This document shows, in pieces, positions 6,743-53,894 of a stretch of DNA of 64,000 bases (the stretch's first letter is position 1; each line of letters opens with the position of its first letter). Under the pieces are notes generated by a model, which was not told where the DNA came from, ran no database searches, and worked only from the letters and a program-made list of their open reading frames with translations. The DNA is from Microbacterium luticocti DSM 19459. Its GTDB lineage: Bacteria > Actinomycetota > Actinomycetes > Actinomycetales > Microbacteriaceae. Position numbers and translations under genes: made by a program. Location: positions 496,001-560,000 of the forward strand of contig NZ_AULS01000001.1 of the NCBI RefSeq assembly GCF_000422405.1. Direction: 5' to 3'.

Positions 6743-7800
6743 AGTGTCGAGGACTCCGCCCACAGGTCGACGTCGATCGAGTCGCTCAGTGCGTCGATGC
6801 GCTCGATCTCTTCGGTGACGAAGGCCGGACCGTTCAGCGCGCCGAGGTTCTCGTCGAGCTGAGCCGGGCGCGACGCCCCGATCAGCGCCGAGGCGACGAC
6901 CGGCTCACGCAGCACCCACTGCAGCGCCATCTGCGCGAGGGTCTGGCCGCGCTCCTTCGCGATCACGTCGAGGCCGCGCAGCGCGGCCAGTGCCTTCTCC
7001 GACAGCCGGCCTTCCGGCAGGGACGAACGCTGCTGGGCGCGCTCGGCGGTGCCGTCGCCGAGGTACTTCGAGGTGAGCAGACCCTGCGCGAGCGGGGTGA
7101 ACGCGATCGCGCCCATCCCCTCCTGCCGCAGCACGCCGGTCAGTCCGTCCTCGACCCAGCGGTTCAGGATCGAGTACGCCGGCTGGTGGATCACCAGCGG
7201 GGTGCCCAGGCTCCGGGCGACCGCCTTGGCCGCGGCGGTGCGTTCGGCGCTGTACGACGAGATGCCCACATACAGGGCTTTGCCCTGGCGCACCAGGGTG
7301 TCCAGCGCCCCGATGGTCTCCTCGACGGGGGTGACCGGGTCGACACGGTGCGAGTAGAAGATGTCGACGTAGTCCAGTCCCATGCGCCGCAGTGACTGGT
7401 CGGCGCTGGCCAGGATGTACTTGCGACTGCCCAGGTCGCCGTAGGGGCCGGGCCACATGTCCCAGCCGGCCTTCGACGAGATGATCAGTTCGTCGCGGTA
7501 CGGCCGGAAGTCCTCGCGCATCATGCGGCCGAAGTTGGTCTCGGCCGATCCGTACGGCGGTCCGTAGTTGTTCGCCAGGTCGAAATGGGTGATCCCCGCG
7601 TCGAACGCGTGCCGCAGCAGTTCCCGCTGCCGGTCGAAGGGGATGTTGTCGCCGAAGTTCCACCACAGCCCCAACGAGATCGGCGGCAGGTAGAGGCCGG
7701 AGGTGCCCACTTGCCGGTACTCGGTTCCGGTGTATCGGTCGGCTGCGGCGGTGTAGGGGCGGTGGATGTCGTCGAGATCGCTCTGGAAACGGTCGCTCAC
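6739..7800 (-). CDS. Aldo/keto reductase, L-glyceraldehyde-3-phosphate reductase (YghZ) type
   Basis: A 353-residue NADPH-dependent oxidoreductase with the AKR barrel. Catalytic-region motifs are HFDLANNYGPPYGSAE (Asp and Tyr), ISSKAGWDM (Lys) and YSHRVD (His), with a C-terminal cofactor segment SALIGASRPAQLDEN. The WNFGDN insert and overall length match the YghZ/GpR group acting on L-glyceraldehyde 3-phosphate or methylglyoxal-like aldehydes; the exact substrate is not provable. The GTG at 7800 has GGAGGG only one base upstream, unusually close, so the true start may differ. The stop overlaps the ispE GTG. A repeat-encoded reading frame ends in TGA overlapping this GTG. Confidence 0.9.
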   Translation of the reverse strand: MSDRFQSDLDDIHRPYTAAADRYTGTEYRQVGTSGLYLPPISLGLWWNFGDNIPFDRQRELLRHAFDAGITHFDLANNYGPPYGSAETNFGRMMREDFRPYRDELIISSKAGWDMWPGPYGDLGSRKYILASADQSLRRMGLDYVDIFYSHRVDPVTPVEETIGALDTLVRQGKALYVGISSYSAERTAAAKAVARSLGTPLVIHQPAYSILNRWVEDGLTGVLRQEGMGAIAFTPLAQGLLTSKYLGDGTAERAQQRSSLPEGRLSEKALAALRGLDVIAKERGQTLAQMALQWVLREPVVASALIGASRPAQLDENLGALNGPAFVTEEIERIDALSDSIDVDLWAESSTL

Positions 7801-8174
7801 CCCTCCAGGCTAGCGGGCGGTGCCCGCCAGGTGGTGAGGGTCGTGACACGGGTGCTCGCCTGGCCGACGGCAGTGGCAGGCCGTGCCCACCAGGTGGTGG
7901 GGGACGTGACGCGGGTGCTCGCCTGCACGACTGCGGTGGCGGGCCGTGCCCACCAGGTGGTGAGCGAAGTGGCGCGGGTGCTCGCCTGGACGACGGCGGC
8001 GGCAGGCCGTGGATCAGGGTGGTGCGCTCGGGCGTGAACGCAGGTGCTCGGCTGGACGACGGCAGTAGCAGGCGGTGGATCAGCGCGAAGCGCTCGGGCG
8101 TGGACGCAGGTGCGACGCTGGGTTGCCTCGTTCGAATGTACGCAGCTCGCGGCGGCTCTGCCTGCTCCCTTCAC
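7797..8174 (-). CDS. Doubtful repeat-encoded reading frame, 125 residues
   Basis: A GTG at 8174 opens a frame running through the whole 63/66-bp repeat tract and ending in TGA that overlaps the reductase GTG start. Because the units are multiples of three, the product repeats about every 21-22 residues (PATAVVQAST followed by RVTSPTTWWAR or CVHARA). No ribosome-binding site is visible at the start, and the opposite strand is also open across part of the tract, so the open frame may simply reflect a GC-rich repeat without stops. I list it because the GTGA overlap is the coupling signature used by many neighbours. No family is recognised. Confidence 0.2.
   Translation of the reverse strand: MKGAGRAAASCVHSNEATQRRTCVHARALRADPPPATAVVQPSTCVHARAHHPDPRPAAAVVQASTRATSLTTWWARPATAVVQASTRVTSPTTWWARPATAVGQASTRVTTLTTWRAPPASLEG
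7812..8120. repeat. Tandem repeat tract, 63-bp then 66-bp units
   Basis: Units begin with GGTGCTCGCCTGG or a close variant at 7851, 7914, 7977 and 8043, with partial copies at both ends. The spacing is 63, 63, 66 and 66 bases. The first units share GGCCGTGCCCACCAGGTGGTG; the later two replace this with a GTGGATCAG...GCGCTCGGGCGTG segment. The tract fills most of the 450-base gap between the reductase and the DUF222 gene. The rest, 8121-8216, is relatively AT-rich and includes a short inverted repeat GAGAAGATTCTC at 8183-8194. Confidence 0.85.
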
Positions 8175-8216
8175 GTCGCACAGAGAAGATTCTCCTCGTA
8201 TTTTCGCACTTCGGGG

Positions 8217-8244
8217 TTGTCTTTTCGAATCTATCTGCTAGTCT
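8217..8244 (+). promoter_or_regulatory. Predicted promoter of the DUF222/HNH gene, probably leaderless
   Basis: TTGTCT at 8217 and TAGTCT at 8239 are separated by 16 bases. The -10 element ends six bases before the ATG at 8251, placing the expected transcription start on or next to the A of the start codon. This arrangement predicts a leaderless mRNA, common in actinobacteria. The AGAGGT between them is too close to serve as a ribosome site. Confidence 0.5.
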
Positions 8245-8250
8245 AGAGGT

Positions 8251-9828
8251 ATGGAACTTCTCGAGGGCGAGCCCGCCGAACGCGTCGATGACGCGTTCGT
8301 GCTGAACGCCCTGTTCCAGGATGCCGAGGCCGATCAGTATGAGACGAACCGGCGCGACGCCCGGCGGTGCGAGGCGCTGGCCGAGGCGCTCGACTATGCG
8401 CGGCGGCATCCCGAGGTGTACGTGAACATCGACCTCGATGCCGACACCCCGATCCGCCGGTACAGCATCCCTCCGCTCGGCGGCGACGCCGAGCTGGCGG
8501 TGCGCTGCGCGGTGACCGAGGCTGCGTCGCGACTGAGCCTGACCGAGCACCAGGTGCGCTCGCTCGCCGGCACAGCGCGGCGGGCCCGCGCCGAACTCCC
8601 CCGGGCGTGGCAGGCGGCGCGCGAGGGGCTCCTCTCGGTCGCGCACGTCGACGGTCTGCTCGCGCAGCTCGGTGCGTTCGCCGAGCATCCGGATCTCGTC
8701 GACGAGTTCGACCGGATCATGACGCAGGTGGCTCTGCACGCGTCGGCGTCGTCGGTGCGCCGCAGGGCCCGTACCGTCGCCGACCGACTCACCTCGCGCA
8801 CCCGCACACAGCGGCACGCCGAAGCCTTCGCGCAGCGGATCGCCTACGTCGAAGACGTCCCCGACCAGATGTCGTGGGTGCATGTGTTGATGCCCTCACA
8901 TCGCGCGCACGCCGTCGACCGCGCGCTGACGGCGACGGCAAAGGCGATGACGACGGCCGAGCGCGACGGGCGCACGGCCGAGCAGATCCGCGCCGACGCG
9001 GCCGCCGATCTGCTCACCGGCGCGGCCTTCGGCGGCTTCGTCACGACCAAGGTGTTCGTGACCGTTCCTCTCGACCGTCTCACGCCCGAGGCGCAGGCGA
9101 GTGTGCGCCCGCACCGGTCGGGCCGGGTCGGACTCGACCTCAACCGCGAGTGCCTCATCCCCGGTGAGGGGCCGATCGACGATGCGACGGCCCGGCAACT
9201 GCTGCTCGAGGCGGGTTCGTTCACCCGGGTGATCACCGATCCGGTCACCGGAGTGATCCTCGACATGGACCGCCGCTCCCGCCGGGCCACCGAAGCACAG
9301 CGCACCTGGCTCACCCTGGTGCACGGCACCTGCGCACGCGACGGATGCGACCGACTGGCGATCACCGCCGACATCGACCACCACTGCGCCTTCCACGGCC
9401 CCGGCCGGGGTGCGACCGATTTGGCGAACCTCGATCCGCTCTGTGATCCCGATCATGCCCCGAAGGATGTCACGCTGATCCGACATCACCGACGGGATGA
9501 CGGCACCATCAGACTCGAATTCCCCACCGGGCACGGCACCGTGAACCCCGATGCCGGACTCGACGCGCGCGTGCAGGCCGCGCTCGCCCGCGCCGAAGCG
9601 CGTGATGGTCAGGCGCCGGCGGAGACGGGCGGTACGGCGTCCGCTGACGGCACCGCATGCGCTGACGGCGCCGCCGGCTACCCCGTGGCAGAACGACCCG
9701 ACGTCGCGTCGGCAACGCGAGGCGGAGGTAACGTCGCATCCGCTGACGGCCCGGCATCCGCTGACGGCCCGGCATCCGCTGACGATCCCGCCTCTGCGGA
9801 CGCCGCCGACGACGACCCGCCGTTCTGA
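8251..9828 (+). CDS. DUF222 domain-containing HNH endonuclease (13E12-type repeat family)
   Basis: A 525-residue protein with a long helical DUF222 region (about residues 40-340) and a C-terminal HNH nuclease domain. The metal-binding pattern [21 protein letters not shown] and [10 protein letters not shown] is seen around residues 365-405. The family is abundant and paralogous in actinobacteria and related to the mycobacterial 13E12 repeat proteins; it is often suspected of mobility, but its function is undefined. The last 80 or so residues are low-complexity Ala/Ser/Asp/Gly built from 18-bp repeats (ASADGP), and the final 151 bases overlap the convergent rsmA gene. The start fits a leaderless promoter. 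It separates rsmA from ispE. Confidence 0.88.
9637..9789. repeat. 18-bp coding repeats (GCATCCGCTGACGGCCCG), two blocks
   Basis: Units of 18 bases lie at 9637-9672 (two degenerate copies) and 9736-9789 (three copies, the first two identical). On the plus strand they read ASADGP in the DUF222/HNH tail. The 9736-9789 block also reads GPSADA on the minus strand, in the rsmA C-terminal extension. The amino-acid patterns on the two strands are near mirror images because of the codon phase. Confidence 0.9.
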
Positions 9829-10661
9829 CGGGCGATCGCGATGAAGTCGTCGATGGTGAGCTGTTCCCCCCGCAGCGTCGGCGCGACGCCGGCACGCTCG
9901 AGCACCTCGGACGCGGTGGCCGACGAGCCGCCTAGCACCGGCGCGAGCGCCTGGCGGAGCATCTTGCGGCGTTGACCGAACGCCGCATCGACCACCTCGA
10001 ACACACGACGTCGCTCGCCGGCGGTGCCCCGTGGCTGCGGATCGCGGACGAAGCCGACCAGCACGCTGTCGACGTTCGGCACGGGCCAGAACACCTGCCG
10101 TGACACGTGCCCGGCCAGCCGCCACGCACCGTACCAGGCGGCCTTGACGCTCGGTGCGCCGTACACCTTCGACCCCGGCGCGGCCGCCAACCGCTCCCCC
10201 ACCTCGGCCTGCACCATGACCACACCGCGGCGCAGGTGATCGAACGTCTCGAGAAAGTGCAGCAGCACCGGCACCGACACGTTGTACGGCAGGTTCGCCA
10301 CCAGCACCGACGGGTCGCCCGGCAGCGACCGCACGCGCAGCGCGTCGGCATCCATCACCGTGAGTGCCCCGTCGGCGACACCGTGGGATGCCGCGGTGCC
10401 GGGCAACCGCGCCGCCAGGCGATGATCGATCTCCACCGCGGTGACGCGGGCACCCGCCTGCAGGATCGCCAGGGTCAGCGACCCCAGTCCCGGACCGACC
10501 TCGACCACGTGCTCGCCGTCACGCACCCCTGCGACCTGCACGATGCGCCGCACCGTGTTCGCGTCGACGACGAAGTTCTGCCCGAGCTTCTTGGTCGGGG
10601 TCACCTCGAGCTCGGCGGCCAGGGCGCGGATCTCGGCGGCGCCCAGGAGTGAGACGGTCAT
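9678..10661 (-). CDS. rsmA: 16S rRNA (adenine1518/1519-N6)-dimethyltransferase RsmA (KsgA) with extended C terminus
   Basis: SAM-dependent enzyme that dimethylates two adenines of the 3'-terminal hairpin of 16S rRNA during 30S maturation. [10 protein letters not shown] near residue 25, the SAM motif [12 protein letters not shown] near 50 and the catalytic [16 protein letters not shown] near 115 are intact. Homologues usually end soon after the DDFIAIAR segment (here near residue 277). This copy continues about 48 residues through a Ser/Ala/Asp tail into the 3' end of the DUF222/HNH gene before TAG at 9678. The tail is made of the 18-bp repeats, suggesting loss of the original stop by repeat expansion. 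ATG at 10661. Confidence 0.93.
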
Positions 10662-10713
10662 CGGGCCATTGTCCCATCCGCGTGCGGTGCCGACCGGTCG
10701 CCAGGATCATCCG

Positions 10714-10920
10714 GTGCCCTCACTCGGCGACCTGGTCGCGCCCCGCCGTCTGGGCCGGGACTTCCGCTGGCTGCTGGCGTCGTCGTGGACCAGCAACCCC
10801 ACCCCCGAGATGTGGCGCATCCCCGAGACCAAGGGCATGGAGCCCGATCAGACCGAGACGCTCTTCGGGCCGCCGAAGGCCGCCCAGCCCGGCACCGCTC
10901 AGTCTTCGAACGCGCCGTAG
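10714..10920 (+). pseudogene. Remnant resembling the N terminus of an MFS transporter
   Basis: A GTG-initiated 68-codon frame between rsmA and tatD, on the opposite strand to both. The first 27 residues (PRRLGRDFRWLLASSWTSN) look like the N terminus of an actinobacterial major-facilitator protein just before its first helix. The next residues (PTPEMWRIPETKGMEPDQTE) have no membrane segment and do not continue it, so an internal deletion or a chimeric join is likely. The frame ends 21 bases inside the convergent tatD gene. No ribosome site is evident. I infer a decayed gene; an expressed 68-residue protein is possible but less likely. Confidence 0.5.
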
Positions 10921-52878: not shown

Positions 52879-52920
52879 TTCAACGCGCGGCGCTGCCGGC
52901 TATTCCCGCACGGTGCTCAG

Positions 52921-53003
52921 CCGGATGCTCAGCGGGTGCTCTCCGGCGGCGTGCTCAGCGGGGCGCTCAGCGGGGTGCTCTCCGGCGGCGTTCTCAGCGG
53001 GGC
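52921..53003. repeat. 38-bp direct repeat overlapping the 3' end of the DUF998-like gene
   Basis: Copies beginning GCTCAGCGGGTGCTCTCCGG at 52927 and GCTCAGCGGGGTGCTCTCCG at 52965 are nearly identical over about 38 bases, with a third truncated CTCAGCGGGG at 52993. On the minus strand the unit contains CCCCGCTGA, which is the last Pro-Arg-stop of the gene, so the stop context is repeated downstream. The rest of 52884-52920 shows nothing notable. Confidence 0.75.
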
Positions 53004-53839
53004 AGAAGCGACGGGTCGACCTCGCCCCACTTCTGCACGGTCTGCGCGAGCCAGTACACCGCGAACAGCACGATGAGCGCCGCCTCCCCCACCAGCACCC
53101 ACGGCCGGCCGGTCTGGTCAGCGCCGGCGAGTCGGGCGATCACCACCCCGCCCAGGTAGACGAGGGATGCACCCATGCCGATCGCCACGGCGGCGTACAA
53201 CCGGCGCCATGCCGCGGGTGAGGTGATCGCGGCGATGACCGCGACGGCGATCATCAGCGTGAAGAAGACGCCGGTGGCCACCAGGTGCCCGACGCGCATC
53301 AGCGACGCCGGATCGGCGAGCACCCAGGCCAGTGCGCCCGCGGCCACGAACACTGCGGCGCCGATCGCCACGGCCACCCCGCGGCTCAGGGTCCCCTGCA
53401 GGCGGGTCAGCACCACGGCGACCACGGCGCCGGCGAGCACGCAGATCGCGTAGGTGGTGACCCCGATCCGCACCTCGGGGCCGAACAGCGCCGGCACGCA
53501 GGGTGAGGCACCCGCGCACCCGCCGCCGACCCCCGGCACGTCCCCGGGCGCGATCGGGGTGGGCAGCAGCGCGATCAGCGGGGCGAACACCGCCGCCAGA
53601 TCCAGCAGCAGCTGCTCGAGGCTGTGGCCCGACAGCGCCAGCAGCGCGAGTGCGATGGCGAACAGCACCCCGGTGAACAGCGTGCGTGCGGGCGTGTAGA
53701 ACAGCGCGCTCAGCGAGGTGACCGGGCCGAGCGCGACCGTCACGACGAGCAACGAGAGCGCCATCACGCCGACCGCGCCGACGATCCCGATGCGCAGATA
53801 GCGGTAGGTGCGCTGGGTCGATGTCGTGCCGGTTCGCAT
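52994..53839 (-). CDS. DUF998-like integral membrane protein
   Basis: A 281-residue membrane protein with about eight hydrophobic segments (for example IGIVGAVGVMALSLLVVTVAL and LFTGVLFAIALALLALSG) and one extracytoplasmic loop with a Cys pair in GGGCAGASPCVPA near residue 117. Overall pattern and length suggest the DUF998/hypothetical seven- to eight-TM family, without assigned function. ATG at 53839 is used since the upstream extension to 53869 overlaps the divergent transporter region without similarity. Its stop lies in a 38-bp repeat unit. The divergent partner is the TDT transporter. Confidence 0.75.
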   Translation of the reverse strand: MRTGTTSTQRTYRYLRIGIVGAVGVMALSLLVVTVALGPVTSLSALFYTPARTLFTGVLFAIALALLALSGHSLEQLLLDLAAVFAPLIALLPTPIAPGDVPGVGGGCAGASPCVPALFGPEVRIGVTTYAICVLAGAVVAVVLTRLQGTLSRGVAVAIGAAVFVAAGALAWVLADPASLMRVGHLVATGVFFTLMIAVAVIAAITSPAAWRRLYAAVAIGMGASLVYLGGVVIARLAGADQTGRPWVLVGEAALIVLFAVYWLAQTVQKWGEVDPSLLPR

Positions 53840-53894
53840 ATTCACGATCCTGCACCCGGCGGCCGACATCCGCGCCCGCTACCCTGAACGCGTG

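Follow-up and report, generated by a model that had tools for sequence, protein, structure and literature searches.

In the window (by which we mean the whole 64,000-nucleotide stretch that was analysed), a gene of the DUF222 family and the 16S rRNA adenine dimethyltransferase gene rsmA (ksgA) run into each other tail to tail and share 151 bp (9678-9828), as a preliminary description of this DNA had reported. We consider it very probable that the DUF222 gene arrived beside rsmA and that its own C-terminal tail then grew, with repeats, thereby moving the rsmA stop codon and leaving RsmA with a passive tail. This would make it a partly traceable, stepwise case of a housekeeping protein gaining a C-terminal tail passively, through the arrival of a neighbour, the overprinting of its stop and subsequent insertions.

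The DUF222 open reading frame (8251-9828, + strand) starts with ATG and encodes 525 amino acids ending in ..DDDPPF, while rsmA (9678-10661, - strand, ATG start) encodes 327. The two frames meet in phase 123:213, i.e. with their third codon positions facing each other. On the RsmA side the overlap begins with a single base of codon 278, continues through 49 whole codons (279-327) and closes with the stop, a TAG at 9678-9680 that appears on the + strand as the CTA within ..GGC TAC CCC.. (Gly-Tyr-Pro) of the DUF222 gene. The end of the enzyme domain had been placed near residue 277, and this agrees with the TIGR00755 match (NCBIfam; residues 21-278, 230.8 bits against a cut-off of 171); the frame indeed runs on into the neighbouring gene, by 49 whole codons and not by 48 as first counted. 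N-L-P-Y, the motif of adenine dimethylases, stands at RsmA residues 123-126 and is invariant across 15 aligned sequences. The tail beyond the domain is hydrophilic and is predicted to be disordered, residues 282-327 having a pLDDT below 50 in an AlphaFold model that is itself a middling one (15 sequences, mean 69.8, two low segments in the core too). As for the partner, it matches PF02720 at 48.5 bits (Pfam gathering score 24.4). No HNH family was found in it at E 0.001, Pfam giving DUF222 only and NCBIfam nothing, and an HNH-like motif, IDHH..H..N..CDPDH, is visible by eye only.

Within the overlap lie three 18-bp units (9736-9789), two exact and the third with three mismatches, and the observation that they code on both strands, as ASADGP on the + strand and GPSADA on the - strand, holds. 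Tandem Repeats Finder gives the array at 9736-9784 with period 18, 2.7 copies and 100%, and one further degenerate unit can be made out by eye at 9790-9807. That the RsmA tail is made of such units is true only in part, since the units are present but the clear ones account for about 54 of the 151 bp and 9681-9735 is not repeat. It is correct that any 18-bp unit placed between the two stops lengthens both reading frames at once. The notion that this coupling is something special to rsmA did not find support, however: the growth is in the DUF222 tail and lies partly outside rsmA, two degenerate units (9637-9654 and 9655-9672, + strand) being read by the DUF222 frame only, outside the overlap and past the rsmA stop, so that repeats occur beyond the overlap as well, and the openness of the second frame is what codon usage gives. 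We also considered the unit as a dispersed, genome-wide repeat and rejected this, a genome scan having returned 36 matches with at most three mismatches against 22 for a reversed control, with both exact copies sitting in this very array.

Could the tail instead be selected for, through stability or a contact with the ribosome, and the pair be kept as overlapping genes? Two frames open together over some 50 codons, and a hydrophilic tail, would fit such a view, but we regard it as very unlikely. A 50-codon open antisense frame is ordinary and selection is not needed for it, because among 42 coding-like open reading frames of the window (chosen mechanically, with rsmA in and the DUF222 gene out) the median distance from the 3' end to the first antisense stop in phase 123:213 is 53.5 codons, against 50 here, and 23 of the 42 are open for at least 50 codons; the same is true of 8 of 26 DUF222 homologues. 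Both frames stay open because the DUF222 end must keep its frame and because third positions are opposed in GC-rich DNA, where antisense stops are rare. With openness at the level of other frames in this phase, special dual-coding selection was abandoned as the leading reading. Against a selected tail also stand its predicted disorder, the two repeat units located where rsmA does not read them, and the relatives, none of which, among the 82 read, has an RsmA extending past about residue 293. In the passive origin that we favour, the extra tail, if translated, is probably neutral or idle.

The relatives come from a search of 149 genomes of the same genus, our own included; rsmA was present in 148, i.e. 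in 147 relatives, and its end was read in 82 of these. Their RsmA is about 279-293 residues long, versus 327 here, the lengths being in query numbering wherever the gene end alone was fetched and hence off by earlier indels (e.g. in the L133 and L134 rows). Measured from the conserved ..IA, the protein ends 2-17 residues further on in the 77 rows (of 82) in which this motif could be located, versus 50 here. The preliminary description had named, as evidence against itself, relatives in which rsmA stops at the usual place and the repeat lies entirely downstream; the usual stop is indeed what these 82 have, but the downstream repeat is not seen in the only relative read that carries the gene pair, a genome that we call G091.

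On the 3' side of rsmA, an aldo/keto-reductase gene with no DUF222 match in between is found in 28 of the 82 relatives besides G091 (6-182 bp from rsmA in 26 of them, 1.1-1.2 kb in the other 2), ispE in 2, and neither of them, in the stretch read, in 51. A look at a few of these 51 showed another gene following rsmA, for instance a metallophosphoesterase-like one (named by eye). The interval between rsmA and the aldo/keto-reductase gene is occupied by different genes in different genomes (L076, L079, L033, L024 and others), suggesting a site of gene turnover. Matches to the DUF222 protein at E 1e-35 or better occur in 49 of 366 genomes of the genus, our own included, and when their distance from rsmA was looked at within the 82 relatives read, only G091 had one beside it. 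Since relatives are without the gene at that place, we infer that it arrived there.

G091 gives the best rsmA match (82%); its genome is rated 68% complete, and its gene order is the same as here, ispE - aldo/keto reductase - DUF222 - rsmA. Its DUF222 frame (L074:5591-6988) and its rsmA (L074:6964-7830) overlap by 25 bp, corresponding in position to the final 25 bp of the window's DUF222 gene (9804-9828), which hold the conserved ..DDPPF-stop end. At the junction the two genomes agree base for base. The antisense of the DUF222 ..PPF end reads as RQNGG in RsmA of both genomes, within the letters IARQNGGSS common to the two, and the rsmA stop of G091 is again a CTA from a DUF222 Tyr codon; the two stops may stem from a single Tyr codon that was moved outwards or from two separate ones. 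The G091 DUF222 protein ends GPYPDDPPF, and no 18-bp array was seen in its tail. What our genome has in addition, 126 bp of overlap (151 less 25), falls in the DUF222 protein's C-terminal tail, ahead of the conserved ..PPF.

These comparisons also bear on the more trivial suspicion that the overlap has been inflated by a mistake in sequencing or assembly, be it one base too few or too many or a miscounted repeat. Errors are frequent in tandem repeats, and we are dealing with a draft genome of 27 contigs. Nevertheless, an error seems highly improbable to us when the array is only 49 bp, below common read lengths, when the DUF222 frame keeps its family-typical ..DDPPF-stop, so that any tail error would need to preserve the frame, and when the 25-bp overlap of G091 has the same junction.

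The ..PPF-stop end is a family trait: of 31 distinct DUF222 C termini, our own (9817-9828) included, 28 have it, and the tails in front of it differ in length. The 31 also count the L105 row, which stops in the wrong frame (..RRR); L001 gave no match when these tails were compared. In other words, ..PPF appears as a conserved C-terminal tripeptide of DUF222 proteins behind a tail of free length. DUF222 genes lie scattered in the genomes, with several copies in each; one genome, G098, has three dispersed copies of the same subfamily (L100, L101 and L102), two of them close on the tree. No sequence shared after the stops of DUF222 copies, such as might mark an element end or a target, was seen.

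Repeats are not foreign to these genes. In-frame tandem repeats were present in 8 of 29 DUF222 genes, mostly inside the protein, versus 4 of 37 control frames, and in our own genome in 5 of the 6 DUF222 frames tested (about 8 such frames being present). A repeat in the C-terminal tail was found, among those 29, only in the window gene and in G251; mid-protein repeats are seen in other DUF222 frames, namely L002, L003, L004 and L007 of our own genome, and L102. The excess in the DUF222 set loosely backs a repeat-grown tail. We dropped the repeat habit of our own genome's DUF222 genes as a main support, given that in the other four genes the repeats lie inside the protein; our odds are based on the relatives and did not change with this.

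The sequence of events that we favour can then be put as follows. A member of the dispersed DUF222/HNH-like family would have landed, pointing towards rsmA, in the interval between this gene and the aldo/keto-reductase gene, and its conserved ..PPF-stop end would have replaced the last few rsmA codons together with the stop; it is because the antisense of that end is read as RQNGG in both genomes that we think rsmA's last codons were overprinted. The rsmA frame would then have ended at the first in-frame antisense stop, the CTA of a Tyr codon, and the two genes would have shared about 25 bp, as they still do in G091. In our own lineage the DUF222 protein would have grown at its C-terminal tail by in-frame sequence, 18-bp duplications included, adding 126 bp between the two stops, and this growth would either have carried the rsmA stop away or have been accompanied by loss of that stop and use of the next CTA, with a disordered RsmA tail as the presumed outcome. 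For annotation, the overlap is a warning about the length of RsmA; it also offers a natural test of the neutrality of such a tail.

The gene trees are less obliging. In the DUF222 protein tree our own gene groups with the three dispersed G098 copies (100/99) and not with the G091 copy, and forcing the copies of our genome (G000) and G091 together gives a p-AU of 0.0008. A single ancestral arrival would hence require either that G098 has lost its copy beside rsmA or that gene conversion took place. This separation in the tree is what speaks for two independent arrivals in G000 and G091, i.e. for an element preferring the rsmA end, a scenario that we hold to be unlikely. It has to contend with a junction identical to the base, with the RsmA letters IARQNGGSS in both genomes, and with the 12 bases CTAGTCTAGAGG before the DUF222 start, which our genome and G091 have in common. 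Moreover, the three G098 copies differ in sequence after their stops, so that no target site shows, and a preferred insertion site was rejected for that reason. Lastly, in the alignment block next to the tail (450-499) the G000 protein agrees better with G091 (35 of 50) than with any G098 copy (24-28 of 50), G260 (33) and G028 (32) being close as well.

Other signals conflict in the same way. Taken separately, the two halves of the DUF222 protein give different groupings; the C-terminal one, with moderate support, tends away from G098. TAGTCTA near the start was found in G091 only among 24 homologues scanned, and the start region of our gene is also like that of G098a, with TGCTAGTCT and the first codons. 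A tree of neighbouring genes joins G000 and G091 at 98/97, with a p-AU of 0.057 when G000 and G098 are forced together, while another neighbour-gene tree, of 14 frames, joins G000 and G098 at 91/95; the latter set was picked mechanically, contains antisense shadow frames (e.g. 5030 + and 24159 -) and deserves little weight. The trees of neighbouring genes disagree on the branching order of G000, G091 and G098. From these conflicts we read an old, shared arrival followed by loss or gene conversion, a reading that leaves some room for two arrivals too.

A further observation on the DUF222 gene concerns the sequence before its start, where one finds TTTCGAAT-N8-TAGTCT-N6-ATG (8223-8250). In a passage of PMC8151990, the PafBC motif is given as TGTCGG-N10-TA-N3-T before the gene; our gene has TTTCGA-N10-TAGTCT ending six bases before its start, with 4 of the 6 letters of TGTCGG. 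Among 30 genes with distinct upstream regions, our own included, 7 were left out for want of a TANNNT box six bases before the start (G271b, own2, own3 and own7, in which no box was found, and G334, own4 and G358, with another spacing). The exact TGTCGG-N10-TA-N3-T precedes 5 of the 23 others, and TCG stands at the same place in 22 of these 23 regions with TANNNT-N6-start, some of the genes being near relatives of each other. Because the TANNNT box guided the choice of starts, only the TCG is an unforced observation. In control frames TANNNT occurs at that spacing before some early start in 10 of 37, and TCGAA-N9 before the box in none of the 37. DUF222/HNH-like genes (8223-8250; L040, L074, L084-L104 and others) show a TCG..-TANNNT-N6-start arrangement of fixed spacing and leaderless look, resembling the PafBC damage-response motif. 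The same source mentions, in the part drawn on here, five putative HNH endonucleases turned on by mitomycin C in a RecA-dependent manner, and dependence on RecA does not itself point to PafBC.

The PafBC-like element before DUF222 genes may turn out to be more useful than the overlap; if confirmed, it would link an unexplained family to the actinobacterial DNA-damage response. One could go further and imagine that a leaderless, PafBC-type promoter of the DUF222 gene drives, upon damage, a transcript antisense to the 3' end of rsmA that dims rsmA, the number of repeats setting the length of antisense pairing, but this we think extremely unlikely. Neither consensus terminators nor sigma-70 promoters were found at 7700-10750.

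Two more tandem arrays may be recorded. The first, with 63-66-bp units, lies at 7816-8113 between the aldo/keto-reductase and DUF222 genes; elsewhere in the genome it has matches at E 0.2 or worse only, and nothing like it was seen by eye in the corresponding gap of G091, which is short. The second, at 52913-53003, has 39-bp units (with 12-bp sub-units) and overlaps the end of the open reading frame at 52994-53869.

A DUF222 gene adjoining rsmA was not met in any of the listed titles or abstracts on DUF222, HNH, convergent overlaps, 13E12 and PafBC. Compared with RsmA/KsgA, the protein is alike in its whole enzyme domain, which scores over the NCBIfam cut-off, and differs in having 49 extra C-terminal residues that derive from the antisense of a neighbouring gene. 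Its partner resembles the dispersed DUF222 (PF02720) genes of Actinobacteria, both in a domain over the cut-off and in the several scattered copies per genome; the 13E12 repeat proteins of Mycobacterium may be related to them.

The overlap itself is a case of a known kind of gene overlap and not a new system. Its 151 bp exceed the minimum (at least 60 bp) for a long convergent overlap in the passages of PMC2478687 considered here. By the measures of that source, it is not a conserved overlap, G091 alone among the 82 relatives read having one, of 25 bp, and it does belong with the 3'-end extensions relative to orthologues (group iii; 327 versus about 279-293 amino acids), a group regarded there as probable misannotation or as real but unconserved overlap. 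According to the relevant part of PMC2174442, the phases seen in convergent overlaps are well matched by a model of stop-codon mutation, and phase 123:213 becomes commoner as the overlap gets longer; stop-codon movement is stressed in a passage of PMC4161906 too. With the convergent overlaps by stop-codon loss treated in these passages of PMC2174442, PMC2478687 and PMC4161906, our case shares 3' ends that overlap by more than 60 bp, one gene longer than its orthologues, and phase 123:213. It differs from them in a history that is partly traceable, in which a gene would have arrived at the 3' end of rsmA and the overlap would then have been lengthened by in-frame, repeat-bearing sequence in the partner, and this second step, the lengthening of an overlap that already existed, is not described in the passages concerned.
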